Below, piece by piece: positions 6,803 through 64,000 of a stretch of 64,000 nt of DNA. The notes under the pieces were generated by a model. The model saw only the letters and a list, made by a program, of their open reading frames with translations. It had not been told where the DNA came from and ran no database searches. The DNA is from Alentia gelatinosa. Lineage: Eukaryota; Annelida; Polychaeta; Phyllodocida; Polynoidae. A program made the translations under genes and the position numbers. Positions within the stretch are counted from its first letter, which is position 1. Every line of letters starts with the position of its first letter. The DNA lies in NCBI GenBank assembly GCA_950022655.1, contig OX465584.1, positions 53,586,789 to 53,650,788 on the forward strand. The letters are read 5' to 3'.

Positions 6803-6816
6803 TTTTTTCTTTTCAG
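6803..6816 (+). promoter_or_regulatory. Splice acceptor ahead of the transporter coding exon
   Basis: TTTTTTCTTTTCAG is a long pyrimidine tract ending in CAG at 6816, with the ATG 16 bases later at 6832. This argues that translation starts at 6832 and not at the in-frame ATG at 6784, which lies in the intron. Confidence 0.8.
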
Positions 6817-6831
6817 AGAGATTCCATCAAA

Positions 6832-7857: not shown

Positions 7858-8631
7858 CCCAGTAAGCCATTTTCCTAAATCCTGTTTCCATTGGTCAATT
7901 TTCCATCACCTATCTACAGTCAGGAACACCAACAGAATTTTGGCACTTCTGAAGCAATCGGTCATTGGAAATGACCGAGCTGCTGAAAAGACCAACAACT
8001 TTTTCTGCTTAGATTATGCAATGTGGCACCACTGACGGATTCATTTCCCGACTGACAGGATCAAAGCCCTTTCATTTTATCAGGGATCCAAGAAGGAAAA
8101 ACTCCTGGTATGCGAGGCAAATGAAAACCCCACTGATTATTTGATACCAACATACAGTCGTTGGCACCACCGACTGATTTTTGAGAGAACTACAAAGTCA
8201 CTATCGTTTTCATTGACCAATGGAAACGGGCCTATAGGCCAATTAAAATGGCACCGACTATTTTAGTTTGTCTGCAGGCACCCATTGAAAAAGGGTTAAG
8301 GACATTTCTAGTTTTCCCTTTGCTAGATATCAGTTTTGCGCTAGTTATTGACTTCCATATACTTGTAAAGTGTTATTTCTACACGCTTATATTATGTCTA
8401 CATAAACTCCACATTTTATTACTGGTGAAATGTTATTTGTAAATGTCTACTTCGCTGCCATTTGGAATTATAGAGGAATTCCTGTTTAGATCAAGTCAGA
8501 TGAAGAATGATCGATTTGGCATTGTTTTTGAAAATGACTCTGGGGTAAGATAGGAAACTATACGTTATATATAAATATATAACCTTGTGATCTTCAGAAA
8601 GACAGCTGGCCTGACTTAACCGGTAAACATA
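7858..8631. other. 3' flank/UTR of the transporter; no further gene
   Basis: No coding signal after the stop. No canonical AATAAA was found close by; AATTAAA at about 8240 is the nearest candidate poly(A) signal. Segments near 7960-8240 repeat words such as CACCACTGA and CACCACCGACTGA and may be an old repeat. Confidence 0.4.
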
Positions 8632-9267
8632 ATGAGTAGACTCCTGATAGGGGATTCCAGGATCCGCTATTTAAGCAGTGACATACGCATTATGCAAAAC
8701 TTTGTGACCCATAGCATCAGTGGCGCCCCGATGGCCAGGGTACGCATGTATCTGCGCACTCCCGGTAATCTAATAGGGGTCCTGATTATATATGTGTCAG
8801 CTGGAATTTGTGACCTCACCACAAAGGACAAGGACAAGCTGGTCATGTTACGACTCGAAAGTCGGGAGGGCCAACTCGGGAGAATAATAAATGTGTGTGA
8901 GAAAATGATCGAGGAAGTGAAAGAAATAGACCAACAGATCAAGATAATCTTCACAACAGTATACTCTATGAGTCTGCACGTCTGGAACAAAGGCAACGCG
9001 AAGTATGACAACGATCAAGAAGAGCTTAACAACCGAGCGCTGGAATTATCAGCAGAGATAGGGCGACTGAACGACTCTCAGGGATTCCAGACTCCCAGGA
9101 TCCATCACGTTATCCACCGCTATCGAGTTAATACACGACGCACCTACCATCTACTGACGGCTATGACGGACGGATGTCATCCAGACACCTTAAAAACCTC
9201 AAAGAAGATGGTGAAGATGCTTATCAGGACAATGCTGAACAACAAACAAGCAGGAATACATCAGTAA
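8632..9267 (+). CDS. SGNH/GDSL esterase-like ORF, probably LINE ORF1 (ES domain)
   Basis: An intact 211-residue frame. LLIGDSRIRYL places the block I GDS motif at residues 7-9 (candidate nucleophile Ser9). VSAGICDLT (about 56-63) matches the strand and loop of the Asn block, with Cys/Asp in place of the usual Asn. MTDGCHPD supplies the C-terminal Asp180-x-x-His183 pair. The SGNH fold is a known ORF1 domain in CR1-type LINEs, and an EN-RT ORF2 lies downstream in the same orientation. The gap to ORF2 (796 bp) is long for one element, so the two could come from separate copies. Whether the ORF is active is uncertain because the Gly/Asn oxyanion residues are not canonical. Confidence 0.65.
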   Translation: MSRLLIGDSRIRYLSSDIRIMQNFVTHSISGAPMARVRMYLRTPGNLIGVLIIYVSAGICDLTTKDKDKLVMLRLESREGQLGRIINVCEKMIEEVKEIDQQIKIIFTTVYSMSLHVWNKGNAKYDNDQEELNNRALELSAEIGRLNDSQGFQTPRIHHVIHRYRVNTRRTYHLLTAMTDGCHPDTLKTSKKMVKMLIRTMLNNKQAGIHQ

Positions 9268-10063
9268 AATGAACTATGGTTCTAACTCGGCTAGGTATCG
9301 GACTTCACTAAGTCATACCGACCTGAGCCTAATATCGTGGATTCTACACTCAAATAATTACAACTATAACTAACTCATTAGGGTCTGTTCATGTATCATG
9401 CTGCCTAGTTAGGCTTCTCTAAGTCGGCTAAGCTGTATATCAATGTATCATGCTCAATGTTAATATCACAGCTCGCAATTTATTCTACCTAAAGTATAAC
9501 CTCTGTACAATAGTCATATTGCTAACCCAATAATTAGTATAGAATACTTAGTTCCTTGTATGGCAAAGTTTTAATTCCTTTTATGTAACCTATCAACTCA
9601 TCTAATATAATATTTTATTGATTAGATCTCGCCGAAAAATGTCTAAATACCTGTAGCACCTAGAATTCTTACTCTAGACAACCGGTTTTGACTTCACAAA
9701 GTCAGCTGGTTCTTAAGGTAATGAACTTATCCTTATCAAAGGATATATAAAGCAAGTAGTTACACACTGTTCAACGCATAAAACTCATTCAGCGTACCTG
9801 ATAATCGCCTTTGTTCGATAATATGGTAGTATAATAACTTAAGATAAAAACATCCAGATCAACAACCATACACGGTGGAGCAGCACCAAAATTTGAAATC
9901 ATCGAATCACCCGTTACTGAGGACAAGCTTTATAGCAGTATGCCCCATGTGACGGAGTATACAGACATGCCGGCAGTATACGCTCGCATGACACTGTGCA
10001 TCATCCCTCATATTCATCCCATACTTTTTCATACTGGTCATAATGTCTTTCCAAGTATAAAAT
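9268..10063 (+). other. Spacer between esterase-like ORF and LINE ORF2
   Basis: AT-rich with no long frame. It could be the inter-ORF region of one LINE, or the 3' end of one element followed by the 5' end of another. Confidence 0.4.
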
Positions 10064-12877
10064 ATGGTTAGACCTATGATTAAAATTGGTTACCTTAATG
10101 TAAGAAGCCTGTTCAAACATATTGAGGAAATTCGTTATCTCTTTAGAGATGTTGATTATATGTGCTATGGTGAATCGTGGCTGACAAACTTGCATACTCC
10201 GGGAATGATTGCCCAAGAAGGCTTTACAACTATTAGAAAGGACAGAGATGCAAAAATTGGTGGAGGTTTAAGTTGCTTCGTAAAAGATAAACACTGTAAA
10301 TATTGCACCTTAGAAGATGAATGGACCCACTCGGACGAGAATTGTGAAATTATGGTCCTAAATGTTATCAAAACAAATAACAAGAAAATGTTAATTGTGT
10401 ATTACTATCGCCCCCCATCCGGTGATCTGGTTTTGTTTCTGTCACTACTGAACGAAATTAAAAATGATGATAGATATGTAAATTACGAATTTAATTTTAT
10501 TGGTGACGACAACATCAATACTAGGTCACGCAACAGTCCTGAAAGCAGAAAACTTTTCGAGTTCTTACATAGTCATGACCTAAAAAACTATGTTGAAGAG
10601 GTCACCCGACCTGAAAGTGGCACCTGTATTGACCATTTTCTAAGTAATGGCAGGTTCATTGAATCAGTAATAATAGACAAGCACCTAATAAGTGATCACT
10701 TTCCCATTATTATTCGTAGACAATTTATCCCCCCTCAACCCGAACCCTGTGAATTTTTTGGACGAAGTTATAGAAGATATTCCACCTTAGATTTTCAGGC
10801 ATACTTATACCGACAAAATTGGACAAGTTTTTATCGAAATAGTAACCCAGATAAATAGTGGAAAATAATGAGTGATATAATTGAGACATACCTTAATGAA
10901 CACTGCCCACAAAGGGTATATAGCTTCACACAGAAAAAGGCGGAATGGCTAACGGAGGACATAATAGATCTAATGGTCGAAAGAAAAGAGATTATCAGCG
11001 ATCACGTATTCTATAAAACCCACCAGGGACGTAATATGGTGAAATCCCTAAAAAAAAGAATAAATAATCTGATCAAGAAGGCTAAAAGTGAATATTGGAA
11101 AACGAAACTAGCTAATGCCTCGAAATCTCCGAGGAAATTTTGGAGTCTGGCAAAAAATCTATATGACCCCGAGGACAATATAAATATGACTAAAATATGT
11201 AGTCATGAAGGAACAGACATTTTTGAAGGACAGGCTATGGTTAACTATGTGAAAACTTTCTTTGCAGTTGGTGGAAACAAACCAAACAAAATTTCAGTGA
11301 ATAAAATAGATGGATATCAGTATGAAGCGGATGCGTTATGCAACCTAACTATAACACTAGATCAGGTCTATTATGTAGTATCTGAAATTGACGATAAAAA
11401 ATCTAGCGGCTTACATGGGATAAATGGACACATCCTTAAAGATGCATTTTTTGTTCTTATAGATCAGCTACGTCTACTATTTCAAAATATTTTAGACTAC
11501 TCATCTTTTCCTAGCTCATGGGCTCACACAGAAATTATTCCTATACCAAAATCATCAAATCCGACTAACGTGAATGACTGGAGGCCAATTTCGTTGTTGC
11601 CTCTACCTGGTAAACTTTTTGAACGTATTTTACACACTTATATATCTAATTTTATAGAAAAGGGTAATCTTTTTAACAATAATCAATATGGTTTTAGACA
11701 AGAAAGAGGGACAACCGACGCAGTCATGCACTTGGTTAATGACTTATATACACATAGAGATAACAAACGTCTTACCCCGTGCCTTTTTATAGATTTTAGT
11801 AAAGCGTTTGACCGGGTTAATAAGAAAATTATTGTAAACAAACTTTTAAAAAATTTCTCTTTAGGGAAATACATAACCAAGTGTATTGCTAGCTATTTAT
11901 CATACAGATCCCAAAGCACTAGAGTTGGCAGCACTCTGTCCTCTAGCACAGAAAATTTTTCAGGTGTCCCTCAAAGGAGTATTATAGGTCCGCTGCTTTT
12001 TAACTGTTTTATTGATGATATTAAAGATTTACACTTTCAATGTACTCATCTATTTTACGCTGATGATTTAGTTCTATATACCAACGATACCGACATTAAC
12101 AACAGCATACACCGTTTACAAAATGACATTTCACTGCTGGAGAATTGGTGCGCTGAAAATGACATGGTGATAAACGAAAAGAAGACAAAATTATGTATTT
12201 TTGGATCAGCTATACAACTTCGTAGTAATTTGGACAAAATAAATAATTCTGATATTGTGATCAACAACAGCTTGATACCTAGGTGTGAGTCCTTTAAGTA
12301 CTTACGGGTAACCCTAGACAATACACTATCTTGGAAAAATATGATAACCCATACTACCAAAAAGGTAAACCAGAGGCTATATCAGTTGTATAAAATTAGG
12401 AGAGACATAACTGAGGAAACCAGTATAAAGATCTATAAGACTATGATATCTCCAATCCTAGACTATAGTGGATACTTTATTAATGGTGCAAATAAAATTT
12501 AGCTTGAAGGGTTACAGAAATTACAGAATCGTGGATTACGAATTTGCACAAGAAGCAAAATTAAGGACATGAGTATCAAAGACCTTCATGATCGTTGTAA
12601 TATTGATTTCTTAAGAAATAGAAGATTGTACTTGTTGCTTGTATTTATGCGTCGATTTGCCAAGGACAAAACTTGCAAAACGAACCCAAAGACCAGATCC
12701 CAACACAAAAGACAAATAAAGCTAAAAAGACCACACACAGCGATCTTTAAAAAGAACCCCCTATATGAGGGGATGGTTGTATGGAATTCTTTGCCAAAGG
12801 AAATACAGTGTTGCTCATTGTATCAATACAAAAAACATGTGAAAATGAAATCTAAGTTGCTGTGTGACAAAGTGTAA
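10064..12877 (+). pseudogene. LINE ORF2 (endonuclease + reverse transcriptase), CR1/L2/Jockey-like, two amber stops
   Basis: One continuous frame of 938 codons interrupted only by TAG at 10856-10858 and TAG at 12500-12502. N-terminal APE-type endonuclease: LNVRSL, GESWL, YYRPPSGD, FIGDDNIN (family consensus GDFN), GTCIDHF and SDHFPI. RT domain: EIIPIPKS, WRPISLLPL, NQYGFR, FIDFSKAFDRVN, GVPQRSIIGPLLF (consensus PQGS), and an intact FYADDLVLY. The thumb and C-terminal region continue through FKYLRVTLD, LEGLQKLQNRGLRICTR (directly after the second TAG) and LKRPHTAIFKKNPLYEGMVVWNSLP. Apart from the two stops the frame is undamaged, so the copy is young or its stops are recent. Confidence 0.9.
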
Positions 12878-22199: not shown

Positions 22200-22348
22200 T
22201 ACGGGAGGAATGAGTGGCGCCACCTAGCGCTTATGCGATCGCATCGCAGATGCGCACAGTACTCCACAGAGGGCGCCTCCAGCGATCTTCAAGGCAGCGT
22301 TTGCTTCGGACAAGCTAATTTAAGAGCTCGCTCAAATCACTCGCAAAG

Positions 22349-23599
22349 ATGGGTAAAAACACCCCAAAGCGAAGAACGAAGGATCAGACGAAGGTAGTTG
22401 AAGACCAGGAAAACGACGATGTCATTTTTAGCAACAAGTTTGTGAGCTTTGACAGAAGGTTTAGCGTTTTGGAGGCGGCACTCGCGGAGATAGCGGCAAA
22501 ACTGAACGGCAATGGCGCCTGCTCAGATCCAGGCACCTCAGCAAATAAGGCGACTTCGTCTCCCTCGATGCAAGCGCCGACGGCCGAGACACTCCAGCCT
22601 CGAGTCCTCCAGGGCATCACAGACGGTATAGAAAATGCTTTCATCGAAAAAGTGGTGGCCTCGGCACCCGCTCAACAAGGAGGAGTCCCGGCGGCCCTGG
22701 CATCCTACGCGGGAACGTCGGCCGCTACGCTGGGCACCATGGCACCCGACAACACGGCGGCAGCGCTTGCACGGCCGGCATCCCAGGGCACCACATTCCA
22801 AGCCGCGCTCTTGGAGCAGAGGCGGGCTGCAGCCTTGGTACCGCCTATGACCGTTAGGCCTGCTAGGCCCGACGACGAGGTGGAGGACCAGGTACGCAAG
22901 ATTCTGGAGACCACGGCCTCAAGGGTCAATGAAGCTGGTAAATATAAGTTTTTCCCACATTTGTATGTGTATCGAGGCCCGGAGAGAACGAAGACAGGCC
23001 TGAACGACCTCACATTGGCAGAGTATGCATGGGCATTGTTACGAATTATTAATGATGATGATTTCCCCCCCCAATACGTGGCACCTCTGGTGGCACACCT
23101 GGAGGAGGTCCTCGAGGACGCCCGGGAATTCGACTTTGCTCAGGTTTGGAGGTGGTCAGAACGGGTATTCGCGATGGTCAGCGAGGACCGCCTACGCTAA
23201 GGCTGGCTCGAGGACACTCGTATTCAGCTGCTCAGAGTTGCGATCTCACAGGTCTATGCAGGCCGCATAACTTATGCAGTCGATAATGTCAAGGGGAAGA
23301 AGGCTAGGGACGACACAGCGAGGCCGTGCCAGCCGTTCAACAAACTGGGGGGGTGTGATAAGCCCCCCGGGCACGTGGAGGCGGGCATTCGCATGAACCA
23401 CATCTGCGCGTACTGCTCTGTCTATACGGGGGCATCCAACGGCCATTCGGAGGTAGCATGCAGAGTAAAGCAGAGGAATCTAAGCGCGGCAAGTCCCGCA
23501 AGCGCTTCACGCTTCCCGGATCAAGTCTCCACCCCCCCCCCCAGGTTTTTCGTCGGTAGGCGAGGCGACTCATCACCGGTCCCGCCTCGCTTCAGCTGA
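22349..23599 (+). pseudogene. Gag-like ORF of the DIRS-type element, one in-frame stop
   Basis: The frame opens with MGKNTPKRRTKDQTK and a low-complexity Ala/Pro region. From residue about 170 it enters a conserved domain (DDEVEDQVRKILE, YKFFPHLYVYRG, WRWSERVFAM). TAA at 23198-23200 interrupts it, probably replacing a Tyr codon, and the same frame continues with GWLEDTRIQLLRVAISQVYA to TGA at 23597. The continuation ends in a Cys/His-rich segment (C-x5-LGGC, then HICAYCSVYTG...HSEVACR) typical of the nucleic-acid-binding tail of such gags. The stop makes the copy non-functional unless read through. Confidence 0.75.
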
Positions 23600-25619
23600 C
23601 AATGTACAAGAGTTTGTTTGTTTACCCGTGCCTACGGCCTACACTTTGCCTACGGCCGATGATTGTGTTACGGGGGGTCGTGGCCGTCGCTGTCCCGGCG
23701 CGCCCCCCCCCCCCCGCCGATTACTATGTCGAAAGTACCCTCCACGTCCACGACGGAGGCGCGTCCAGCACCTCAGCAGATGAACCGCTAGAGGGCGCCA
23801 CAGGCGCGTCCCTAGATGCGGCAGGTGGCGCCGCAGGAGACAGTGAGGATGCGGCAGGCACCCCCCCGGTTCCTCGGGTTGCGCCCCTACGGTGTGGGCC
23901 TGCCGCCTACGCAACGGTCGTGAAATCCATCTGGCCTCGCCCATCTCCTGGAGTGTGGGGGGGGGCACGAGGCAATTGAGAGGGCATACAGCGAGGTCCG
24001 GGTCTCGGGCCTCCCGAACTACCTCGGGGCGCGGATACCCGTTCCCTCGGGCATGCGGATCGATGCATGGAGGGCAGCCTTAGTCGACTACCACGATAAT
24101 CAGGTCGTCGAATTTCTGGAGTACGGCTGGCCGTTGGGATTCACTGGCGCCAGCCCCCCCACCTCCACGCACCGCAACCACGCCTCCGCGGAGAATTACC
24201 CCCGCCACGTAGCGGCCTACCTGGAGAAGGAGCTCGGGGAGGGGGCGTTGGTAGGCCCGTTCCGGGACCTGCCCTTCACCCCGTGGTCGGCCGTATCTCC
24301 CCTCATGACTGGTCCAAAGAGGGGCTCCTCCAGCAGGAGAGTAATAGTCGATATGTCCTTCCCCCCCGGGGGCGGGGTCAACGCGGGCGTGGAAATGGGC
24401 CCCCATCTGCCGTACGCCCAGACATGCACCCTCCCTACGGTCGCCGACCTAGCGGAGAGAGTTCGGGCACTCGGAAAAGGGGCGTGGCTTTGGAAGGCCG
24501 ACATGGCCAGGGCTTACCGCCAGCTGCGGGTGGACCCTCGGGACCTCCCCCTCCAGGTCGTCGCGGCCAAGGGGAAGTATTACATCGACCCCTGCTGCCC
24601 ATTCGGCGCCCGCCTCTCGGCCTCCGCATGTCAGAGAGTCACACGTGCAGTCACCTACCTCCTGGGCCGTGGGGGCCACCACGCGTTGTCGTACATCGAC
24701 GACTTCGCGGGCGCCGAGGCCACGCGTCAGGAAGCGACGGACGCCTACACCGCCTTCGAGGGCCTCGCGGCGCGCTTGGGCCTGGTCCTCGCCGCAGATA
24801 AGTGCAGTCCTCCGGCCCAACGAATGGAGTGGTTAGGGATTGACATAGATACGGTCGCGATGACCCTGCGCATCCCGGAGGACCGGCTGGCCGACGTGGT
24901 GAGGGAATGCAAGGCGTGGATCGCCCGTAAAGCCATCACCCGGGCCCGCCTACAGTCCATCGTCGGCCGCCTCATATACGTCGCCCGTTGCGTATCACAA
25001 GCCCGCAAGTTTGTTGCCCGCGCCCTCGCCTTCCTACCTCGAGTCCCGGGAGTGGGCGTGGCGACCATCCCAGCTGCGGTGAAAGAGGACTTTCGGTGGT
25101 TTACACGTTATGCAACGGCCGCCAACGGCGTGGTCCTGGTGTCTCCACACAGAGAACAGTTTGGTATATTCGTGTCTAGCAGGGACGCGGTCATCGTCGC
25201 TAAAACGGCCACCACGAGCTTGCACCAGGAGGCGACCGGCACCGCGGCCGCCCTCGGCCCAGGGTTCCGGTTCCACCGGTAGCCATTCTCCAGGGCATTG
25301 CTACTCTCGGCGCGAGGGCGCCACCCGGGGCGGCCGTCGTCGTCCACACGGACGACATGGCTCCAGTTGAGGCCATCGCCTCAGGCCGAACTAACGACCC
25401 GGTCGTCTCGGCCGTAGCCCGCGAGATCTGGCTGGCGGCAGCGTTGTGGGATGTCGATGTCAGTTTTGTATACGCGGCCGTTGCGGAAGCCATCGCTCCT
25501 GGCGGCCGTTCCTTTGTAAATATCAACCCCGTATTTGATATAGATGTTTTTGCTTCCATCCTATCTAGGCACCGGCACCCCCCTGCATGCCCAGATGATG
25601 GCATCCCTGGCGTCGGCTG
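23600..25619 (+). pseudogene. RT-RNase H ORF of the DIRS-type element, frameshifted
   Basis: The main open part, 24053-25282 (409 codons), extends in frame upstream through LLECGGGHEAIERAYSEVRV to a TGA near 23920. RT motifs in order: PLMTGPKRGSSSRRVIVDMS, WLWKADMARAYRQL, YIDPCCPFGARLSASACQR, SYIDDFAG (catalytic YIDD box), LGLVLAADKCSPP and WLGIDID. A shift near 25270 moves the RNase H part to another frame, where VVVHTDDMAPVEAIASGRTN, then PVVSAVAREIWLAAALWDVD (25330-25460) carry the second acidic motif. The 23602-23979 segment is Ala/Gly-rich linker. Confidence 0.8.
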
Positions 25620-26517
25620 AGGCCCCCACGACGCGCCAGAACCACCTCATTCAGGCCCAGGCCTACGTGCGTTTCGCCGTCTCATCAGGATTCGATCCTC
25701 GCTGGCCGACCGTTGCCTACGGGGCCCTCTACACCCAGGCCTGGCCAATTCATTTCGGGCCCCGGCAATGGCCGCCAACTATCTATCAGGAGCCCGGACC
25801 TGGATACGCCGCCATGGCGGGGACCCGGCACTGCTATTTGCGGACGAGGTCCTCGCGGTTCAGCGCGGTACCAGACGCCTCTCCGTCCACGTTCCGGCAC
25901 CGGCCCCTGCAGGTCGCCTTCAAGAACTCCGGCACGTGCTTCTCTACTTATCCAGGGCCGGGCCCTCAGCCCTCGTCCCCCGGGCGGCTCTACTTATTGC
26001 TTACTTCACGTTTCTACGGGCCTCGAACATCGTATCCCCGTCATTGACCTCGTGGGGCGGCCCCCACACCCTTCAACGAGCGGATATACAGGCCCAGCAT
26101 GGACTCCTCAGGATCCACGTGAGATCGACCAAGACAAGGTCACGTGCGGCCCCCCCTCACGTGGTCGATCTCCCGCGCTTGGCGGATCCGCTGATCTGCC
26201 CGGTGGACGCCTATAGGAACTATGTCGCGGCCGTTCCGGCCCCTCCACGGGCGCCAGCGTTCATCCTATCATCATCAATCCCGCTTACCTCTCGGCCGTT
26301 GTGCGCCATCATGCGTACTGCCTTGGCGGCCGTGGGATTCCCGGCGGCCGAGAGAGTAACACTCCACTCCTTGAGGAGGGGGGCAGTCCACGATGCTGTG
26401 GCTGCGGGGGTTCCCCAGAGTGTTATCTCCCATCATGGCACCTGGAACAGTGCCGCTGGCATTAGGCCTTACTTACCCCCGTCGGGAAGGACGTCGACCC
26501 CTTCCCGACTGTATTAA
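25620..26517 (+). pseudogene. Tyrosine recombinase of the DIRS-type element, one frameshift
   Basis: The N-terminal core-binding part (TTRQNHLIQAQAYVRFAVSS) is in one frame. After a shift around 25730-25770 the catalytic domain runs from Met 25768 to the stop at 26515. It keeps the tyrosine-recombinase residues: FLRASNI (Arg I), VRSTKTRSR (Lys region), LHSLRRGAVHDA (His-x-x-Arg), HGTWNSAAG (His/Trp) and the nucleophile region GIRPYLP (Tyr). This enzyme would insert the circular cDNA. The catalytic set looks complete; only the frameshift is damaging. Confidence 0.8.
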
Positions 26518-28509: not shown

Positions 28510-28901
28510 ACATGGCAGTTAGTTTTTTTATATAAAAGAGCAGTTTTTATTTCTATGTCGGTCTGGCCTCTTCTGAGTTCTGTTATGCATTACAGCCCAA
28601 TTCCTGTTAGCCTTATAGAATTATATGATAACTGTACAATGAATCACAATTGATGAAATATAATGTTAACATTCTGTCCTATGGTGTCCATATGTTCTTT
28701 TGTTACTTTTGTGCAATTATTCACTAAGTTTATTATTTAGTAAATTGCTTTATTTCACCCGTAGAATAAGTTTAGCATAGGAATAACATTATAAAAAGAA
28801 TTTCTCATCAACCTGGAGATTTATATGGTCCTAATTGGATTTGTTTAAACAGTTTGATATTTGGATGCTATTAGATGTCCTTGAAAGACTTGGGATAGAT
28901 C
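28510..28901. other. No gene recognised
   Basis: AT-rich; frequent stops. Confidence 0.5.
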
Positions 28902-29041
28902 AAGAACCGCACTCAAAAAGTAAAATACATAATACTCCACTCGTTTGGATGCTCTATAATCGTCACTTGATTTCGCCTCAATAACGATTACGGTGCATCC
29001 AAACTCGTGGAGTATTGTGTATTTTTACGATTTTTGGTTCA
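28902..29041. repeat. Hairpin element, AATACTCCACTCGTTTGG type
   Basis: Left arm AGAACCGCACTC, then AATACTCCACTCGTTTGGATG. Right arm GCATCCAAACTCGTGGAGTA, then GGTTCAG, pairing over about 48 bp. The same stem, including AGAACYGCAC, forms the hairpin modules inside the 100-bp array at 60256, 60987 and 63812. Confidence 0.75.
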
Positions 29042-29271
29042 GTTTTATATGATTCTTGTCGACAATATGCAAAAATGCCCGACGGGGATGTATGTTTTCG
29101 TGATGTAAGTATGAGCATGTATACAAAGTACTTTATTTCTCTTAAAATAATACGATTTTCCGAGAAGAAAATATTATTTAAGAGAATGACGTCAATCAGG
29201 AACCGAGAAGTGGCTGTAAAGTGGTGTTGTCCGTTATTTTGAAATACTTGTCGGCAGAGGTGTGTGCTGCC

Positions 29272-33553: not shown

Positions 33554-33633
33554 ATTCGGACAACTATCCAACGCACTCTCAGTAATCTCCTGGGAAAGAG
33601 ATCGGATGCTCAAGCCCCTTACTAGGTCTTGCA

Positions 33634-36366
33634 ATGGGTCCCCCAACAAACTGCAGCGCCGTTCTACTACAGGCGGAGAACAAGAGAACTAACGACACCT
33701 TCCTCTTCATCTCTGGTTTCGTAGCCGTGTTCCTCACGATTGCGCTAGGTAGCTTGGCGAACCTCTATGCTTTTCTAAGGATAAGATCTTCCTGGAGGTG
33801 GAACCCAATGCTGTGTAACCTGGCAGTGGTAGGTCTGGTGGCCTCATCTATGTCTGCCCCAGTCTACGCAACCGACGTGCTACTCAGACATGTATTCTCC
33901 ATCAAGTCTTCTCTACTCTGTCAAGTGACACAGTACCTGTGGACAGCCTGTGAGCTCCCACTCTGCATAAGTCTCTCAACGATTGGCTTCCAAAGGATGC
34001 GAAATGTCTTCGCGACATTCTCGCAGAAGCCTTCGGTGGCGTTTGAGTTTATCGCGATCATCGTTGCCTGGGCTTCAGTTATACCACAATGTTGCATGGG
34101 GGTGGGGGGAGACCCTGTTGACTGCACACTAAGTTTAGAAGAAGGTGGACTACCTTCTCTGAATTCGGAAATTCACAGCCATTTCCATTGGCAATCCAAG
34201 CACAGTTCCTTGCTGCTTGTTTTATTGACTGCCTGCTCAATGTTCTCAGCATATGTACTTACCATATGGTATTTAAGGTTCAGAGTTTACCGAGAGCAAC
34301 CAATGGTGACCCATCCCCCTATTCGTCTAGATAAATTCTCCACAGCGCATCAGTGTGCCACGACTGGCTTCCGGGCCAGGGATCACTCAATGATGGAGTC
34401 CCATGTGGAGAAGACGACCGTCACCTACATGTTGGCTAAGCATGTTCTGATGACACATGGTTGGAGACAGCCAAGTTCAACATCCAATCATGATCTTTCG
34501 GGAGAGGTTCTAGGCACTTGTGTGGAGACCTTCCCAGAGAATAGCATCCCTTCACCTCTGCCAAGGGACTGGGAGCAGTGTGTGTCTGTGCAGAGAAGAC
34601 GCAGTAGCCTTGATGTCTCCACGATATACTCCATGCACCAGAGTGATGTTCGGGGTCCAGCACAGCTCCAGAACCATCCCATGGGGAGGGTGAGCCTTCC
34701 CGGCTGTATCTCCCCGGAGATGGATGACTTTGCCCCCGGAGAGCAGACCGAATCCTTCAAACATCATCAGTGGAAGCTGCAGCATAGTTACAGGTCTCAC
34801 AGAAATCATTTCATGGACATTGACCGCTTGACGGAAAGTCGCATCTCAGAAGAGTCGTCCATGCACATGAGGCAGTCTGACAGTCCTTGGGCAGAGCAGA
34901 TTACTCCACCATTTAACAGGGCCAGCCAGAGTGATCCTTTTAATGATGCTGGAAGAACATACCTAGAAAGATCCAACAGACTTTCTCCATATCAAGGCAC
35001 AAAGGTATTCAGCTTAAGCAGTTTGTCTTCGGATGGTGAATCAGTCGGGAAGTTAAGTCTTATCAGTATTGGTTCACGGAGGAGTTCAAAGCGAAGGCGA
35101 TCAATTAATCTAGATAAATTACTTCATGCGGGAAGGAAGAAACGCAAATCAGAGATCAATGAGGTGCAAAATGATGAAAATGCTTCAAGAACTGTGAATG
35201 CTTCAGTACAGACAGACTTCAGTAATGATGCAAAAGTGAAGCAGGAAGCAGAGAGTGAGAGAAAACACTCCATAAGCAAATCCTTTAAGAGGGCCTCCAG
35301 CTTCGACCAAGCGACACTGAAGTTGAAGAGATCGCAAGTGGCCGCAGAGTCTCAAGGCGTCCAATCTGGCAGGAAGTATTCAATTCAGCGTAGTAGAAAA
35401 AGATTAGATTCCCAGAAGGCAGGAAAGAAGAAGAAATCCAAGGGTACCAACAAAGAACAAGGACTGAGATCACCTTCATGGAAAACTGATGGCTCAACAT
35501 CCTTCAACTTGCCACCTTTGAGGCATGAGCGACTGAATGCCAGTGGTATGCCTTTTTTTGAAACATCCCCTGGTGATCCTGCAGACTGCTTCAAGAAGAC
35601 TCCCACTGAGTCTGAGCTGGAGCAGCAATATGCCGAGAGCGTCAGTGACTTTGTCGTACAACGCGACAGAACATCAGGTTCAAAGGTGTCCTCCAAGACG
35701 CTCTCTACACAGCCCATAGAGGAGGCACTGCGAAGTAGTCTCCATAGTCCTGAGGCGAAATCCAAAAAGTGCACCACACAACGCTCTACGAAGGCCAGCC
35801 GCTTATCAGAGGTGGATGTGTTTCAGTTCCTTGATGAAACAGAGGACAAGGAGAGTAATATTTCCAATGCGAATTCCCGGGTCACTCTACAATGCTGCAC
35901 AACCAGGGTGGAGAGAAGTCTATCCTGCCAGAGTGACCCTTCTGGTTTGACCATAGCTCGTCCAGTTCGCAGGCTCACCTGGGCTCCGGTACAACTCAGG
36001 AGTGGTCTGTCTCATAGGACGACAGAGGAACCCATACAGAGACTGCGAGTGACCCACATGGCAGCACCTTGGCAGGTTGGGCGAATCACGAAGCATGACG
36101 GAGCGTATTATGCAGGAAGGAAGGCAGCGTGGTTGATGAGTTATTTTATTATTACAATGGTGCCGCTAGCTATATTCAGAGTGGTTTCTGACACTTCGAG
36201 CTGCTCACCAGAAAGACCAGCCTCATCCTGCCTTCTACAGGCCCTGAGTTATCTGTGCTTCATCATAAATCCTTTCTCTTATATCCTCTCAAATAAGAAC
36301 TTATTAAGAAGACCTGGAAAAATCACGGATATCAGGCGGCCTTTTACCACTGCATCAGTCCCTTAG
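33634..36366 (+). CDS. Class A (rhodopsin-like) GPCR with very long third intracellular loop
   Basis: A 910-residue single-exon receptor. The N-terminus has sequons at Asn6 and Asn20. Helices lie at about 25-49 (GSLANLY, the conserved Asn of TM1), 57-80, 96-120, 136-155 (Trp146), 191-214, 831-850 and 865-885 (NPFSY, the NPxxY motif of TM7). Cys96 at the start of TM3 and the Cys of ECL2 (Cys164) can form the usual disulfide. Departures: TM2 lacks the Asp of LAxxD (LAVVGLV), the D/E-R-Y box is FQRMR, and TM6 has TMVP for CWxP. About 600 residues separate TM5 and TM6. This loop is Ser- and basic-rich, with KRRRS, RKKRKS, KKKKSK and many RxxS sites, and looks disordered and phosphorylatable. Ligand and subfamily are unknown; atypical switches suggest unusual or constitutive signalling. 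Confidence 0.85.
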   Translation: MGPPTNCSAVLLQAENKRTNDTFLFISGFVAVFLTIALGSLANLYAFLRIRSSWRWNPMLCNLAVVGLVASSMSAPVYATDVLLRHVFSIKSSLLCQVTQYLWTACELPLCISLSTIGFQRMRNVFATFSQKPSVAFEFIAIIVAWASVIPQCCMGVGGDPVDCTLSLEEGGLPSLNSEIHSHFHWQSKHSSLLLVLLTACSMFSAYVLTIWYLRFRVYREQPMVTHPPIRLDKFSTAHQCATTGFRARDHSMMESHVEKTTVTYMLAKHVLMTHGWRQPSSTSNHDLSGEVLGTCVETFPENSIPSPLPRDWEQCVSVQRRRSSLDVSTIYSMHQSDVRGPAQLQNHPMGRVSLPGCISPEMDDFAPGEQTESFKHHQWKLQHSYRSHRNHFMDIDRLTESRISEESSMHMRQSDSPWAEQITPPFNRASQSDPFNDAGRTYLERSNRLSPYQGTKVFSLSSLSSDGESVGKLSLISIGSRRSSKRRRSINLDKLLHAGRKKRKSEINEVQNDENASRTVNASVQTDFSNDAKVKQEAESERKHSISKSFKRASSFDQATLKLKRSQVAAESQGVQSGRKYSIQRSRKRLDSQKAGKKKKSKGTNKEQGLRSPSWKTDGSTSFNLPPLRHERLNASGMPFFETSPGDPADCFKKTPTESELEQQYAESVSDFVVQRDRTSGSKVSSKTLSTQPIEEALRSSLHSPEAKSKKCTTQRSTKASRLSEVDVFQFLDETEDKESNISNANSRVTLQCCTTRVERSLSCQSDPSGLTIARPVRRLTWAPVQLRSGLSHRTTEEPIQRLRVTHMAAPWQVGRITKHDGAYYAGRKAAWLMSYFIITMVPLAIFRVVSDTSSCSPERPASSCLLQALSYLCFIINPFSYILSNKNLLRRPGKITDIRRPFTTASVP

Positions 36367-43946: not shown

Positions 43947-45074
43947 ATGGGCAACGTGCAACTTCAGCAAGGGCAAAATCAAGGTGTAGGGGAAGGTGTT
44001 GAGACTTCAGCCTCCACCCCTGACTCAGGCCCTGGATCCTTCATCGGGCTGTCCAACCTTAGACGTCCCTCATGGATCCGTACCAACTGGAGCATGACTC
44101 TACGGCGGTCCCGGTCCACCGGCTCCGACCAGGAGGGGTCGGTCCAAACATCCCCGACCACCGACACGGCCGTACAGACACCGGTCACAGTCCCGCCCGA
44201 TTTCGGGGAGAGAGTCAGTAACACCATAGCTCAATGCTACAACAACACCCGCAGTAATAGCACCCAGAATGGCCACCACCATATCAGGACCCCTACTGCC
44301 ACAGGGCCCAGCCTGGAGGAAGCACTGCTGGGGAACGATACGGATAACAGCTATCTGCCCATGCCGATAAGTACAGGTGTCACTAACCATGGCTTCAGTG
44401 GGCTGCCTATGACACTGCCACCTGCTGTGCTGTCAGAGCTGTCAGAGCCGGAGACTCCACCATTGTGTAGGCCAAGTCTGGCCAACCCAGATCTCCTCAG
44501 ACTCACCCACATCGTCCCTGACGATGATTTCAACCCGGATTCCCCACTGATTGACTCCGGGGAGGGTTCCTCGAGCTCATCCTTAGAGTCACTCCGATTG
44601 GACACGGATTTCGTCCTGGGGCAGAACGGGTTAGCTGAAGCCAGTAGCACGCTGGCGACTGGATTATCGTTAGTGTTAAGGGGCGCTATTAAGACTCTCA
44701 AAAAGGAAGGGGATTGCCGTGAGGAAAAACTGGCCACTCTGCAGAAGATCAAGGAGCTTGTGGTGGACAAGGAGGAGCAGCGGGAAAAGATCTCGGATGT
44801 TATGCTCGCCCTGGGCTACCCTGATGTATACAGTGGACTGGTCCAGAAATACCTCGATGATGATGGTCTAACTGTAGATTCCACCGATGAGGGGGCCACC
44901 GGGGAATCCCCAACAAAAACTAGGTGGAAAATGCTGGAAATAATCTATTTGACATGCGTGAAAATATCCGATAAGAGTGCGGCCTTCGGTAAAGCTTTGA
45001 CCGATGCAGGAATGCTGAAAACCACCACGGACACTCTGAATAGAGAGGACTACAAGAACAAGTGCACCGGCGAG
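43947..45074 (+). CDS. Unknown gene, coding exon 1 (376 codons)
   Basis: Begins MGNVQLQQGQNQ; Gly2 might be myristoylated but the rest of the consensus is weak. Residues 1-240 are low-complexity, Ser/Thr/Pro-rich and probably disordered. Residues about 235-376 (RGAIKTLKKEGDCREEKLAT, LQKIKELVVDKEEQ, EKISDVMLALGYPDVYSGLV, MLEIIYLTCVKISDKSAAFG) look helical, in the style of ARM/HEAT repeats, though I cannot name the family. The frame runs on into the intron, but GGCGAG|GTGAGC at 45074/45075 is a strong donor in phase 0, and exon 2 joins without breaking the frame. No clear acceptor lies just upstream of the ATG, so this exon may be longer in the UTR. Confidence 0.7.
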
Positions 45075-56097: not shown

Positions 56098-56321
56098 GTA
56101 CCTGGAGTGCGGTAACGAGTCGCTGCGGCTGAAGGCCGGGCAGACCATGCTGATGATGCTCCTGAAGGACCGCGTGGAGGACCGCCTCCAGGTGATGGCC
56201 GACGCCGTGTCCGGGGCGGCCGGCCACGACTCCTCCAGCACCGCCGGCGCCGACCTGCTGGAGCCCACGTTTTCACCGTACAACGCTACAACAACAGACG
56301 ACACGACCACGGGACTCTCAG
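56098..56321 (+). CDS. Unknown gene, coding exon 3 (224 nt)
   Basis: Acceptor CCGTGTTCTGCAG| at 56097. The first G completes Trp (TG|G) from exon 2, giving RTVEW-YLECGNESLRLKAG, QTMLMMLLKDRVEDRLQVMA and a linker, then TFSPYNATTTDDTTTGLSG. The donor CTCAG|GTTAGTG at 56321/56322 is phase 1. GC-rich, unlike its intron flanks, as expected of coding sequence. The last 48 bases and the donor are the seed of the tandem array that follows. Confidence 0.8.
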
Positions 56322-58002
56322 GTTAGTGTCAGTGTGTGTCTCTGTGTCTCAGTGTCTCTGTGTGTCACTTTACAACGCTACAACAACAGACGACACGACC
56401 ACGGGACTCTCAGGTCAGTGTGTGTGTGTCTCTGTGGGTCTATGTGTCACTTTACAACGCTACAACAACAGACGACACGACCACAGGACTCTCAGGTCAG
56501 TGTTTGTGTGTGTCTCAGTGTCTCCGTGTGTCACTTTACAACGCTACAACAACAGACGACACGACCACGGGACTCTCAGGTTAGTGTCAGTGTGTGTCTC
56601 TGTGTCTCAGTGTCTCTGTGTGTCACTTTACAACGCTACAACAACAGACGACACGACCACGGGACTCTCAGGTTAGTGTCAGTGTGTGTCTCTGTGTCTC
56701 AGTGTCTCTGTGTGTCACTTTACAACGCTACAACAACAGACGACACGACCACGGGACTCTCAGGTCAGTGTGTGTGTGTCTCAGTGGGTCTATGTGTCAC
56801 TTTACAACGCTACAACAACAGACGACACGACCACAGGACTCTCAGGTCAGTGTTTGTGTGTGTCTCAGTGTCTCCGTGTGTCACTTTACAACGCTACAAC
56901 AACAGACGACACGACCACGGGACTCTCAGGTTGGTGTTTGTATGTGTCTCAGTGTCTCTGTGTGTCTGTGTGTGTCACTTTACAACGCTACAACAACAGA
57001 CGACACGACCACGGGACTCTCAGGTCAGTGTTTGAGTGTGTCACTGAGTGTTTCTGCGTCATTGTGTGTCAATGTGTGTCACCGTGTAGCGCTACAACAA
57101 CAGACGACACGACCACGGGACTCTCAGGTTAGTGTGTGTGTGTCTCAGTGTCTCTGTGTGCCACTGTGTGTCACTGTACAACGCTACAACAACAGACGAT
57201 ACGACCACGGGACTCTCAGGTCAGTGTGTGTGTGTCACTGGATGTCTCTGTGTGTCACTGTGTGTCAATGTGTGTTACTTTATGTCACTTTACAATGCTA
57301 CAACAACAGACGACACGACCACGGGACTCTCAGGTCAGTGTTTGAGTGTGTCACTGAGTGTTTCTGTCACTGTGTGTCACTGTGTGTCAATATACAACAC
57401 TATAACTGCATACGACACGACCACGGGACTCTCAGGTCAGTGTCAGTGTGTCTTTGGGTGTCTCTGTGTGCCACTGTGTGTCAATGTGTGTTACTTTGTG
57501 TCACTTTACAACGCTACAACAACAGACGACACGACCACGGGACTCTCAGGTCAGTGCTTGAATGTGTCTCTGGGTGTTTCTGTGTTAATATGTGTCAATG
57601 TGCTCTCAGGTCAGTGTTTGAGTGTGTCTCAGTGTCTCTGTGTGCCACTGTGTGTTATCAGGTCTATGCTGAGAAATGCCTCAAGGCATTATCTGGTCTA
57701 TGCTGGGAAATGCCTGGAGTGTGTCTCAGTGGCTCTGTGTGTTACTGTGTGTTACTGTGTGTCACTTTACAATGCTACAACAACAGATGACCCGACCACG
57801 GGACTCTCAGGTCAGTGTTTGAGTGTGTCACTGTGTGTCACTTTACAACGCTACAACAATAGACGATACGACCATGGGACTCTCAGGTTAGTGTCAGTGT
57901 GTCTCTGGGTGTCTCTGTGTGCCACTGTGTGTCACTTTACAATGCTACACCAACAGACGACACGACCACGGGACTCTCAGGTCAGTGTTTGAGTGTGTCT
58001 CA
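56274..58002. repeat. Exon 3-boundary minisatellite, main block
   Basis: Each unit contains TACAACGCTACAACAACAGA and CGACACGACCACGGGACTCT, CAG|GTYAGTG, then a TGTGTCTCTGTGTC spacer. Unit ends (last base of CTCAG) lie at 56321, 56413, 56495, 56579, 56671, 56763, 56845, 56929, 57023, 57127, 57219, 57333, 57435, 57549, 57810, 57885 and 57980, plus a partial at 57609. All keep GT. A three-unit block of 258 bp (56322-56579) is repeated at 56672-56929. Long open frames here (up to 398 codons) are array artefacts. Confidence 0.9.
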
Positions 58003-58376
58003 CCCGGCGTTTACACTAGACGACTTAATATGTGGCGACTGTAGATCGTCAAGCCGATAGTCGTCAGGCGGTGGCAATGTCCACCGCAAAAGTCGTCAAC
58101 GTCAAAATTTACCTGAGTGTTCACACTGATGACTATGAGTTTTCACAGAATCGCCGCCTATGTAGATGACTAATTCAAACCGGCTTGAAATAGTCGTCAG
58201 GGCCAGAGCGTGTCTAATAGTTGTGAGGTGGTGCTTTATTGCGTAATCTGACGTAATCAGACGATCTGCAGTCGCCACGCTCTTGGCGTTTACACTAGAC
58301 AATTTCTAGACTTTTACGGCTGAAAGTTATCAGGTTCAAGAATCGCCGCCTATAATCGTCTAGTGTAAACGCCGGG
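58003..58376. mobile_element. MITE, GGCGTTTACACTAGACGA family (copy 3), inserted in the array
   Basis: CCCGGCGTTTACACTAGACG and CGTCTAGTGTAAACGCCGGG are exact complements. It separates array units. Confidence 0.85.
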
Positions 58377-58840
58377 TAAGTGTCTCTGTGTGCCACTTAA
58401 CAATGCTACAACAAGAGACGACACAACCACAGGACTCTCCGGTTAGTGTCAGTGTGTGTCTTTGTGTTTCTCGGTGCCACTGTGTGTTAGGCCTGACGTC
58501 CACCTACTACGATAGAAATTTAGACCAACCGATATGGCACCGATACAAAAAGCAAATATCGGAGACATATCGGGAAGGTGCGAAATCGTAGACATATGTC
58601 TAGACATGCCAATCCACCATGCATCGTAAGGTTTATTTTTCGGTGCCTAATCGCAAAAACGTGGTCAACTGCCCCGATATTAGGTGACCTTCCAAAGCGA
58701 TTTTGATTTTTTATCGGGAGATGCATCGTAGACCATTTGGGAGCAATATAGCAGTAGGTGGATGCCAGGCCTAACTGTGTGTCAACATACAACACTATAA
58801 CTACAGACGCCACGACCATGGGACTCTCAGGGGAGAATTT
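58377..58840. repeat. Exon 3-boundary minisatellite, distal diverged units
   Basis: Unit ends at 58441 (CTCCG|GTTAGTG) and 58830 (CTCAG|GGGAG, donor lost), separated by the 282-bp MITE at 58490. Confidence 0.75.
58490..58771. mobile_element. 282-bp MITE (copy 3), inserted in the array
   Basis: GGCCTGACGTCCACCTACTA to AGTAGGTGGATGCCAGGCC. More diverged than copies 1 and 2 but exactly the same length. Flanked TTA| and |TAA. Confidence 0.85.
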
Positions 58841-59432: not shown

Positions 59433-59634
59433 GCAGTGAAGATGTGGCGGAAGCGCTGGCGCAGGAGCTGATACGGCGCATGCTCGGCGGGGGGCCGGGA
59501 GCCGGAAGTACCGCCGACGACGTGCTCGACGACTTCATGGACGCCATGTCGCCCGAGAAGCGCAAAGTGCGCGAGGCCGAGCACATGGCTGAGATCGGCA
59601 TGCACACCGTCTACGTGCAGAACATACGCCGGTG
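59433..59634 (+). CDS. Unknown gene, coding exon 4 (202 nt); gene continues
   Basis: Acceptor GGTGGATCCTACAG| at 59432. Its first two bases complete Gly with the last G of exon 3, so LSG-SEDVAEALAQELIRRMLG reads through. It continues with a Gly-rich turn, TADDVLDDFMDAMSPEKRKV and REAEHMAEIGMHTVYVQNIR, then R and TG|GTACGT (phase 2). With exons 1-3 it gives 553 residues. Family unknown. The last 50 bases plus the donor are the seed of the 100-bp array. Confidence 0.8.
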
Positions 59635-59773
59635 GTACGTATCATACAGAAACAGGCTTACTGTGGCTGTAGGTTATGAATATGTGGTAAAATTTACTAA
59701 TATGTAGTCAGTTTTACCAGGTATTTATCAGATACAGACATAGTATACCTGTTTTCTTTTTATTATGTTCTAG

Positions 59774-60255
59774 TGTTACTATCTATGATCACATGGCTGA
59801 GATCGGCATGCACACCGTCTACGTGCAGAACATACGCCGGTGGTACGTATCATACACAGGGATTCTCCACTAGTGTTACTATCTATGATCACATGGCTGA
59901 GATCGGCATGCACACCGTCTACGTGCAGAACATACGCCGGTGGTACGTATCATACACAGGGATTCTCCACTAGTGTTACTATCTATGATCACATGGCTGA
60001 GATCGGCATGCACACCGTCTACGTGCAAAACATACGCCGGTGGTACGTATCATACACAGGGATTCTCCACTAGTGTTACTATCTATGATCACATGGCTGA
60101 GATCGGCATGCACACCGTCTATGTGCAGAACATACGCCGGTGGTACGTATCATACACAGGGGTTCTCCACTAGTGTTACTATCTATGATCACATGGCTGA
60201 GATCGGCATGCACACCGTCTACGTGCAGAACATACGACGGTGGTACGTATCATAC
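59774..60255 (+). repeat. 100-bp exon 4-boundary array, block A (5 units)
   Basis: Units start (base after TAG) at 59774, 59874, 59974, 60074 and 60174. Each has TGTTACTATCTATGATCACA then the exon 4 end through CATACGCCGGTG|GTACGTATCATAC and ACAGGGATTCTCCACTAG|. The first unit is preceded by CTTTTTATTATGTTCTAG, a good acceptor. From T after AG to TG before GT is 69 nt with no stop, in the frame of exon 4. Confidence 0.9.
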
Positions 60256-60586
60256 TTATATAGAACTGCATCGAGAATCTTATAAATAGACAATACTCCA
60301 TGAGTTTGGATGGGCTGCAATCGTCATCGAGGCGAAGCCGAGTGATGATTACGGCTCAGCCAAACAAGTGGAGTATTGTCTATTTTATGATTCAAGTGCG
60401 GTTCTGGATTTATCTTACCCCTTTCTATGACATTGAATATCATCACAACTTCAGAATAATCAGAATAAACTTAGCAAATTCACTACGCCACGGCCGTGGC
60501 GTAGTATTTTCACTTTACCAGGGTGATCTTGAGTATATTTTTCCAATGTTATTCCAATAGCTTAACTTGTACCAGGGGTGAGATAA
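60256..60586. mobile_element. Hairpin + TIR module inside the array (copy 1)
   Basis: The hairpin, with stem TAAATAGACAATACTCC / GGAGTATTGTCTATTTTA and apex CGAGGCGAAGCCGAG, is followed by a module bounded by TTATCTTACCCC and GGGGTGAGATAA whose centre is the perfect palindrome CTACGCCACGGCCGTGGCGT. It sits exactly between CATAC and ACAGGG of the array unit. Confidence 0.85.
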
Positions 60587-60986
60587 ACAGGGATTCTCGA
60601 CTAGTGTTACTATCTATGATCACATGGCTGAGATCGGCATGCACACCGTCTACGTGCAGAACATACGCCGGTGGTACATATCATACACAGGGATTCTCCA
60701 CTAGTGTTACTATCTATGAGCTCATGGCTGAGATCGGCATGCACACCGTCTACGTGCAGAACATACGCCGGTGGTACGTATCATACACAGGGATTCTCCA
60801 CTAGTGTTACTATCTATGATCGGATGGCTGAGATCGGCATGCACACCGTCTACGTGCAGAACATACGCCGGTGGTACGTATCATACACAGGGATTCTCCA
60901 CTAGTGTTACTATCTATGATCACATGGCTGAGATCGGCATGCACACCGTCTACGTGCAGAACATACGACGGTGGTACGTATCATAC
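60587..60986 (+). repeat. 100-bp array, block B (4 units)
   Basis: Units start at 60605, 60705, 60805 and 60905. Variant codons at the D-H position: GAGCTC in unit 2 and GATCGG in unit 3. The last unit has CGACGG for CGCCGG just before the insertion, as in blocks A and D. Confidence 0.9.
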
Positions 60987-61318
60987 TTATATAGAACTGC
61001 ATCGAGAATCTTATAAATAGACAATACTCCATGAGTTTGGATGGGCTGCAATCGTCATCGAGGCGAAGCCGAGTGATGATTACGGCTCAGCCAAACAAGT
61101 GGAGTATTGTCTATTTTATGATTCAAGTGCGGTTCTGGATTTATCTTACCCCTTTCTATGACATTGAATATCATCACAACTTCAGAATAATCAGAATAAA
61201 CTTAGCAAATTCACTACGCCACGGCCGTGGCGTAGTATTGTCACTTTACCAGGGTGATCGTTGAGTATATTTTTCCAATGTTATTCCAATAGCTTAACTT
61301 GTACCAGGGGTGAGATAA
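60987..61318. mobile_element. Hairpin + TIR module (copy 2)
   Basis: Near-identical to copy 1; noticed differences are TATTTTC/TATTGTC and GATCTTG/GATCGTTG. It lies 731 bp from copy 1, so block and module were duplicated together. Confidence 0.9.
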
Positions 61319-61818
61319 ACAGGGATTCTCGACTAGTGTTACTATCTATGATCACATGGCTGAGATCGGCATGCACACCGTCTACGTGCAGAACATACGC
61401 CGGTGGTACATATCATACACAGGGATTCTCCACTAGTGTTACTATCTATGAGCACATGGCTGAGATCGGCATGCACACCATCTACGTGCAGAACATACGC
61501 CGGTGGTACGTATCATACACAGGGATTCTCCACTAGTGTTACTATCTATGATCGCATGGCTGAGATCGGCATGCACACCGTCTACGTGCAGAACATACGC
61601 CGGTGGTACGTATCATACACAGGGATTCTCCACTAGTGTTACTATCTATGATCACATGGCTGAGATCGGCATGCACACCGTCTACGTGCAGAACATACGC
61701 CGGTGGTACGTATCATACACAGGGATTCTCCACTAGTGTTACTATCTATGATCACATGGCTGAGATCGGCATGCACACCGTCTACGTGCAGAACATACGC
61801 CGGTGGTACGTATCATAC
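61319..61818 (+). repeat. 100-bp array, block C (5 units)
   Basis: Units start at 61337, 61437, 61537, 61637 and 61737. GAGCAC in unit 2 and GATCGC in unit 3. Unit 1 has GTACATA at the donor, as in block B. Confidence 0.9.
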
Positions 61819-62111
61819 TTAGAAGGAAACCCACGAGATGGAAATAGCTTGGTCCGTAATCCACCGAGTTTGACTGCAGAGTAATTCACGAAGCGAAGCT
61901 GAGTGAATTACTCTGTGGTCAAACGAGGCGGAATGCAGATGAAGTTTTTTTCATCGAGTGGTTTTCTAATTTTATCTCACCCCGTATAACACTATTTATT
62001 GATGAAATGAATCACCAAATTAGCTATTGAGTATTGGGTACACGAACCTCACTGCCGTGGAGTACGAGTCCTAATGTTAAGCCTATGGAGGAAAATACAA
62101 GGGTGAGATAA
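61819..62111. mobile_element. Different hairpin + TIR module at the same unit position
   Basis: The stem TCCACCGAGTTTGACTGCAG / CTGTGGTCAAACGAGGCGGA has apex CACGAAGCGAAGCTGAG, followed by TTTTATCTCACCCC ... AAGGGTGAGATAA. CCTAATGTTAAGCCTATGGA is near its right end. It starts directly after CATAC, like the other modules, but has a different sequence. Confidence 0.85.
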
Positions 62112-63811
62112 AGAGGGATTTTCCACTAGTGTTACTATCTATGATCACATGGCTGAGATCGGCATGCACACCGTCTACGTGCAGAACATACGCCGGTGGT
62201 ACGTATCATACACAGGGATTCTCCACTAGTGTTACTATCTATGATCACATGGCTGAGATCGGCATGCACACCGTCTACGTGCAGAACATACGCCGGTGGT
62301 ACGTATCATACACAGGGATTCTCCACTAGTGTTACTATCTATGATCACATGGCTGAGATCGGCATGCACACCGTCTACGTGCAGAACATACGCCGGTGGT
62401 ACGTATCATACACAGGGATTCTCCACTAGTGTTACTATCTATGATCACATGGCTGAGATCGGCATGCACACCGTCTACGTGCAGAACATACGCCGGTGGT
62501 ACGTATCATACACAGGGATTCTCCACTAGTGTTACTATCTATGATCACATGGCTGAGATCGGCATGCACACCGTCTACGTGCAGAACATACGCCGGTGGT
62601 ACGTATCATACACAGGGATTCTCCACTAGTGTTACTATCTATGATCACATGGCTGAGATCGGCATGCACACCGTCTACGTGCAGAACATACGCCGGTGGT
62701 ACGTATCATACACAGGGATTCTCCACTAGTGTTACTATCTATGATCACATGGCTGAGATCGGCATGCACACCGTCTACGTGCAGAACATACGCCGGTGGT
62801 ACGTATCATACACAGGGATTCTCCACTAGTGTTACTATCTATGATCACATGGCTGAGATCGGCATGCACACCGTCTACGTGCAGAACATACGCCGGTGGT
62901 ACGTATCATACACAGGGATTCTCCACTAGTGTTACTATCTATGATCACATGGCTGAGATCGGCATGCACACCGTCTACGTGCAGAACATACGCCGGTGGT
63001 ACGTATCATACACAGGGATTCTCCACTAGTGTTACTATCTATGAGCACATGGCTGAGATCGGCATGCACACCGTCTACGTGCAGAACATACGCCGGTGGT
63101 ACGTATCATACACAGGGATTCTCCACTAGTGTTACTATCTATGATCACATGGCTGAGATCGGCATGCACACCGTCTACGTGCAGAACATACGCCGGTGGT
63201 ACGTATCATACACAGGGATTCTCCACTAGTGTTACTATCTATGATCACATGGCTGAGATCGGCATGCACACCGTCTACGTGCAGAACATACGCCGGTGGT
63301 ACGTATCATACACAGGGATTCTCCACTAGTGTTACTATCTATGATCACATGGCTGAGATCGGCATGCACACCGTCTACGTGCAGAACATACGCCGGTGGT
63401 ACGTATCATACACAGGGATTCTCCACTAGTGTTACTATCTATGATCACATGGCTGAGATCGGCATGCACACCGTCTACGTGCAGAACATACGCCGGTGGT
63501 ACGTATCATACACAGGGATTCTCCACTAGTGTTACTATCTATGAGCACATGGCTGAGATCGGCATGCACACCGTCTACGTGCAGAACATACGCCGGTGGT
63601 ATGTATCATACACAGGGATTCTCCACTAGTGTTACTATCTATGATCGGATGGCTGAGATCGGCATGCACACCGTCTACGTGCAGAACATACGCCGGTGGT
63701 ACGTATCATACACAGGGATTCTCCACTAGTGTTACTATCTATGATCACATGGCTGAGATCGGCATGCACACCGTCTACGTGCAGAACATACGACGGTGGT
63801 ACGTATCATAC
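62112..63811 (+). repeat. 100-bp array, block D (17 units)
   Basis: Units start every 100 bases from 62130 to 63730, nearly identical. Variants: GAGCAC at 63030 and 63530, GATCGG and TATGTATC near 63600-63640, and CGACGG in the last unit. The last three units copy the order seen at the end of block B. Confidence 0.95.
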
Positions 63812-64000
63812 TTATATAGAACTGCATCGAGAATCTTATAAATAGACAATACTCCATGAGTTTGGATGGGCTGCAATCGTCATCGAGGCGAAGCCGAGTG
63901 ATGATTACGGCTCAGCCAAACAAGTGGAGTATTGTCTATTTTATGATTCAAGTGCGGTTCTGGATTTATCTTACCCCTTTCTATGACATTGAATATCATC
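63812..64000. mobile_element. Hairpin + TIR module (copy 3), cut by the window edge
   Basis: Same as copies 1 and 2 from TTATATAGAACTGCATCGAG to the window end inside the TTATCTTACCCC module. The array probably continues. Confidence 0.9.

Follow-up and report, generated by a model that had tools for sequence, protein, structure and literature searches.

Intron 4 of a gene in the window, the 64,000-nucleotide stretch of Alentia gelatinosa DNA analysed here, holds a tandem array of 100-bp units that copy the end of exon 4 together with its splice donor. This array is very probably a minisatellite of the mirage type, most likely removed whole with intron 4, and seems to belong, as a very large member, to an already known kind of repeat. 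In support of this reading stand the copied exon-intron junction, an open reading frame that runs on without the array, block duplication within the array, and similarly built arrays in other introns.

Table 1. Exons, arrays and inserts. Coordinates above 64000 continue the window numbering along the same contig.
Feature	Position	Strand	Remarks
Probable first coding exon	43947..45074	+	376 codons, then GTGAGC; putative assignment
Exon 3	56098..56321	+	224 nt, same gene as exon 4
Array in intron 3	56322..58840	+	copies exon 3 end and donor; 19 places including the native one, GT after 18 of 19
Exon 4	59433..59634	+	202 nt, ends in phase 2; donor TG/GTACGT, acceptor TCCTACAG
Exon 4 donor to unit 1 acceptor	59635..59773	+	139 nt; best acceptor tract of the array, 12/15 pyrimidines
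100-bp array, units 1-31	59774..64000	+	units 32-44 beyond the window, to 65726
Insert I, copy 1	60256..60582	.	foldback element, spacer after unit 5
Insert I, copy 2	60987..61314	.	after unit 9, 99.4% identical
Insert II, copy 1	61819..62112	.	after unit 14
Insert I, copy 3	63812..64000	.	after unit 31, crosses window end to 64139
Insert II, copy 2	64544-64837		after unit 35, outside window
Exon 5	67175-67376		preceded by CCGCAG; begins GCTGAAGGACC
Exon 6	68201-68297
Exon 7 array	69156-70732 (L010 5156-6732)		139-bp unit, copies acceptor and exon 7 start
Exon 7	70701-70987
Exon 8	72259-72456
Next gene, two exon-end arrays	L011 5907-6396 and 7108-8855
L050 arrays	8007-8910 and 9222-9567		tandem boundary copies at both ends of one intron

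Host gene, array anatomy and origin of the unit

The exon edges in Table 1 were read from the sequence in this analysis rather than taken from an annotation. Joined without the array, exons 3 to 8 give 402 codons and a stop, with AG before each exon and GT after exons 3 to 7, so the reading frame is complete in the array's absence. Exon 4 meets exon 5 in frame at TG/G, a tryptophan codon, across a 7540-nt intron that contains the array. The phases of the probable first exon and of exon 3 do not meet, so at least one intervening exon is missing from the model. Three database proteins (P0001-P0003) are 95, 94 and 81% identical to exon 4, and all of these matches stop at the donor tryptophan or four residues past it. 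Pfam gave no family for exon 4, for exons 3-8 or for the probable first exon, a comparison with PDB sequences found nothing for the product of exons 3-8, and none of the 7999 candidates scored in a database search with the 402-residue protein reached an E value of 0.001 or better. Elsewhere in the window, long open frames at 4119-5090, 10061-12877 and 22319-26517 resemble retroelement proteins, with motifs seen by eye that we take to be reverse-transcriptase-like; two long single-exon frames (33586-36366 and 6763-7857) look by eye like membrane proteins, one perhaps a seven-helix receptor.

A pattern requiring AG, TGTTACTATCTAT, CGGTG and GTA exactly finds 44 full units between 59774 and 65726, 31 of them in the window, with a truncated unit 3′ of these at 65758. 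Such a pattern alone might miss damaged units; a core search that tolerates errors returned 45 matches including the exon 4 copy, that is, the same 44 units, so none had been missed. Tandem Repeats Finder likewise reports the array as 100-bp units. A first-pass annotation of the window had described 31 units of AG, 69 nt and GT, without stops, in phase 2 and continuing the exon 4 frame, and the unit search bears this out. The array that it placed at 59433 to 64000 is present, but exon 4 itself starts at 59433; the repeats begin at 59774 and run on to 65726. The segment between AG and GT, hereafter the mini-exon, measures 69 nt in 43 units and 72 nt in one. Since all 44 have AG before, GT after and an open frame in the exon 4 phase, each is formally usable as a frame-keeping mini-exon, as had been proposed. 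The gap between one donor and the next acceptor, given earlier as only 31 nt, has that length in 27 of 30 cases in the window; the other three span 324-363 nt because dispersed elements sit within these spacers, and 139 nt separate exon 4 from unit 1. Across the whole array there are 38 spacers of 31 nt and five insert-bearing spacers of 324-363 nt, the latter placing certain neighbouring units at normal intron distance from one another. The predicted RNA fold of the unit is no better than that of shuffled sequences (z 0.63).

The unit equals exon 4 over the 53 nt upstream of the donor, and over 56 nt with the exception of a single base (GAT, where exon 4 has GAG); past the donor, its first 14 nt equal the start of intron 4. 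The simplest reading is that the unit arose by one tandem duplication spanning the junction of exon 4 with intron 4, which took in 53-56 nt of the former and about 44 nt of the latter. GAG, as in the exon, is retained in four of the 43 units with a 69-nt mini-exon and in the truncated last unit, two of the 44 units match exon 4 across all 56 nt, and unit 1 is identical to the consensus. The opening 13 nt of each mini-exon have no counterpart in exon 4, in agreement with the earlier observation that the unit start is absent there. The further suggestion that this start (TGTTACTATC) derives from the true next exon fails, as exon 5, which lies outside the window, begins GCTGAAGGACC and does not match. 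Probably, 100 bp spanning the junction (exon part, donor and intron part) was duplicated in tandem and the copies were amplified, most likely by unequal exchange.

Inserts I and II are dispersed foldback elements. They occupy the identical position in the unit, after ATCATAC, and both start with TTA and end with GGTGAGATAA. Insert I folds as a single strand far better than shuffled sequences (z -8.6). Both inserts have related copies in other parts of the retrieved sequence; examples are 28864-29050 and locus L043 for insert I, and 73825-74105 for insert II. A C>A change at position 64 is found only in units 5, 9 and 31, exactly those that precede insert I, and this linkage points to one insertion that was copied along with its neighbours. 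One insertion of each element followed by block copying explains the distribution of both: the foldback elements probably entered single spacers and then multiplied in blocks with the adjoining units.

Sequence change and splice signals in the units

Over its 69 sites in 43 units (the 72-nt one is omitted from the table of changes), the mini-exon shows 12 distinct changes, four silent and eight amino-acid changing. This density is as high as that in the spacer, where five distinct changes fall on 31 sites in 38 spacers, a count that omits the five spacers with inserts and the sequence preceding unit 1. Within the low power of the comparison, the units thus show no coding constraint. Random change would be expected to yield 21-25% silent changes and 3-4% stops; the chance of zero stops among 12 changes is 0.62-0.66, and that of sparing AG and GT in 17 changes is 0.50. 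Chance accounts for the intact frames and splice sites, so that intact units, in a test of low power, say little for selection, and these features were rejected as evidence of it.

Differences between units were earlier said to fall mainly in the Asp-His codons. Positions 16-19 hold 12 of the 22 unit-level differences and five of the 12 distinct changes. Plain random change does not explain the latter concentration (P 0.0004, for a region picked post hoc). The cluster adjoins the duplication breakpoint, and its GAG is the form seen in exon 4; conversion, or an effect of the breakpoint itself, looks like a simpler cause than selection on the protein.

The acceptor common to 36 of the 44 units has eight pyrimidines in 15 positions, and the six native acceptors have 9-12. 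Units 6 and 15, which lie behind inserts, have six, and among the four acceptors scored in the array only that of unit 1 reaches 12. On an approximate donor matrix, the sequence GTACGT, present in 39 of the 44 units and identical to that of exon 4 itself, scores 6.5, the variants GTATGT (three units) and GTACAT (two units) score 6.8 and 2.9, and the native donors of exons 3-7 range from 3.4 to 10.2.

Boundary-copy arrays elsewhere in the genome

Three arrays of this anatomy reside in the one gene, at exons 3, 4 and 7. The exon 7 array contains 12 acceptor places, counting the native one, and 11 of these are followed by GTAAGG at a distance of 24 nt. In the next gene, the exon ends at 79912 and 81117 continue into 20-bp and 41-bp arrays of 24.9 and 44.3 copies, respectively, according to Tandem Repeats Finder. 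At the first of these, the repeated junction CACAG/GTA combines an acceptor with a donor, resembling a recursive splice point.

One of 20 random 10-kb loci (L050) also contains boundary-copy arrays. Its two arrays offer eight donor and five acceptor places, native sites included, with AG kept in four of the five acceptors, and the exons flanking the intron, as read from the sequence, join in frame. The 20 loci comprise 60 tandem arrays, seven of which, including those at L050 8007 and 9222, were read by eye; of the six read first, one, at L050 8007, copies an exon end. A donor-consensus scan of these 60 arrays with an approximate matrix was too noisy to give a rate. Three further random loci (L045, L046 and L048) consist almost wholly of satellite DNA, with periods of 470, 350 and 316 bp.

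The older exon 3 and exon 7 arrays give mixed signs of constraint. In the exon 3 array, variation is lower in the copied exon part than in the remainder of the unit (0.050 versus 0.175-0.218); in the exon 7 array it is not (0.121 versus 0.070-0.127). Frame-keeping lengths of 24 nt can be drawn in both of these arrays too, at sites chosen by hand.

Mirages and rival readings

Mirages are described in the lancelet Adh3 and globin genes as tandem copies of intron-exon boundaries, in units of 10-160 bp and many with AG and GT; RT-PCR points to regular splicing, the arrays are unstable in length, and a model of intron gain has been built on them (PMC3087553). Troponin C mirages and similar repeats in PGBD5 have been added since (PMC3902484), and both reports present such repeats as not disturbing splicing. 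The amphioxus arrays (Adh3, BflGb6, BflGb9 and troponin C) resemble the one in intron 4 in being minisatellite-type copies of an exon-intron boundary, on the donor or the acceptor side, with AG and GT. Here too the unit spans the boundary, with 53-56 nt of exon 4, the donor and 14 nt of identical intron start, and the splice signals recur in every unit. Of the homogenised interior and distinct edges typical of mirages, the truncated last unit with its GAG and the plain block duplication are in keeping, yet unit 1 equals the consensus. The accounts of the amphioxus genes differ from what is seen here in that BflGb6 has three and six units of 150-160 bp, compared with 44 of 100 bp, and in that the present case adds block-multiplied element inserts and three arrays in one gene. 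A search for GFP, run to see whether the host might be a lancelet, came up empty, and it was equally silent in all 14 controls.

Other systems are partly comparable. Minisatellites at exon-intron boundaries, of variable number, are reported for human duplicated genes, where RNA supports new introns or alternative forms (PMC2812944), although those units average 30 bp and four repeats. In an earthworm metallothionein gene (PMC12783039), duplications of exon 4 are absent from the final transcript and the intron carries repeats, but the extra exon copies number two, one of them inverted, and the repeats are not described as boundary copies in the parts of that paper drawn on here. Intron gain by tandem genomic duplication in the potato RdRp gene (PMC4974935) likewise involves a duplication carrying splice signals; there a new intron is claimed, whereas the array described here lies inside an existing one.

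On the mirage reading, the array would most likely be spliced out whole within intron 4 as exon 4 joins exon 5. Counting against it are the AG, GT and open frame kept in all 44 units, as a used exon would keep them, though chance explains this; the cluster at positions 16-19 and the lower variation of the exon part in the exon 3 array; and the few units (three and six in BflGb6) of the cited published mirages. It is improbable that some units are instead spliced in as cassette mini-exons, each adding 23 in-frame residues and varying the length of the protein. Their length, splice signals and in-phase frames would suit such a role, most of their donors are those of exon 4, unit 1 has a good acceptor tract at 139 nt from exon 4, and the five long spacers could act as normal introns between some units. 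Set against this are the common acceptor with 8/15 pyrimidines and 38 spacers that, at 31 nt, are below intron length. The first-pass suggestion that some units could be used found no support: the frame of the gene stays open when they are left out, the mini-exon carries changes at the same density as the spacer, and chance accounts for what is intact. Inclusion of a subset, unit 1 above all and the units behind inserts, is likewise unlikely; the protein would then grow by 23-residue steps, with an array changing fast between individuals, and the array would be an exon factory seen at work, of which the genome would contain many.

Very unlikely, too, is a role of the repeated donors as U1 decoys or docking sites, or, at junctions such as those of the next gene's arrays in which GT directly follows AG, as recursive splice points, by which splicing would be tuned or the long intron shielded from early cleavage. 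Donor-side copies occur in five of the seven arrays described, and the idea is otherwise speculative; but two arrays copy acceptors (exon 7 and L050), and retention in the exon 4 array does not exceed chance. That the assembly has collapsed or inflated the copies is most improbable. The near identity of the units, in one assembly, would favour such an error, but linked variants and inserts stand in ordered blocks, and other genes contain arrays built in the same way. The exact number of 44 units may nevertheless be off.

The presence of seven arrays in a pair of adjacent genes and a single random locus suggests that copied exon boundaries may be common in the genome. They would in that case provide natural tests of how splicing chooses among dozens of identical donors, and of the model, put forward for lancelet globins in the account cited above (PMC3087553), in which such copies yield new introns and exons.
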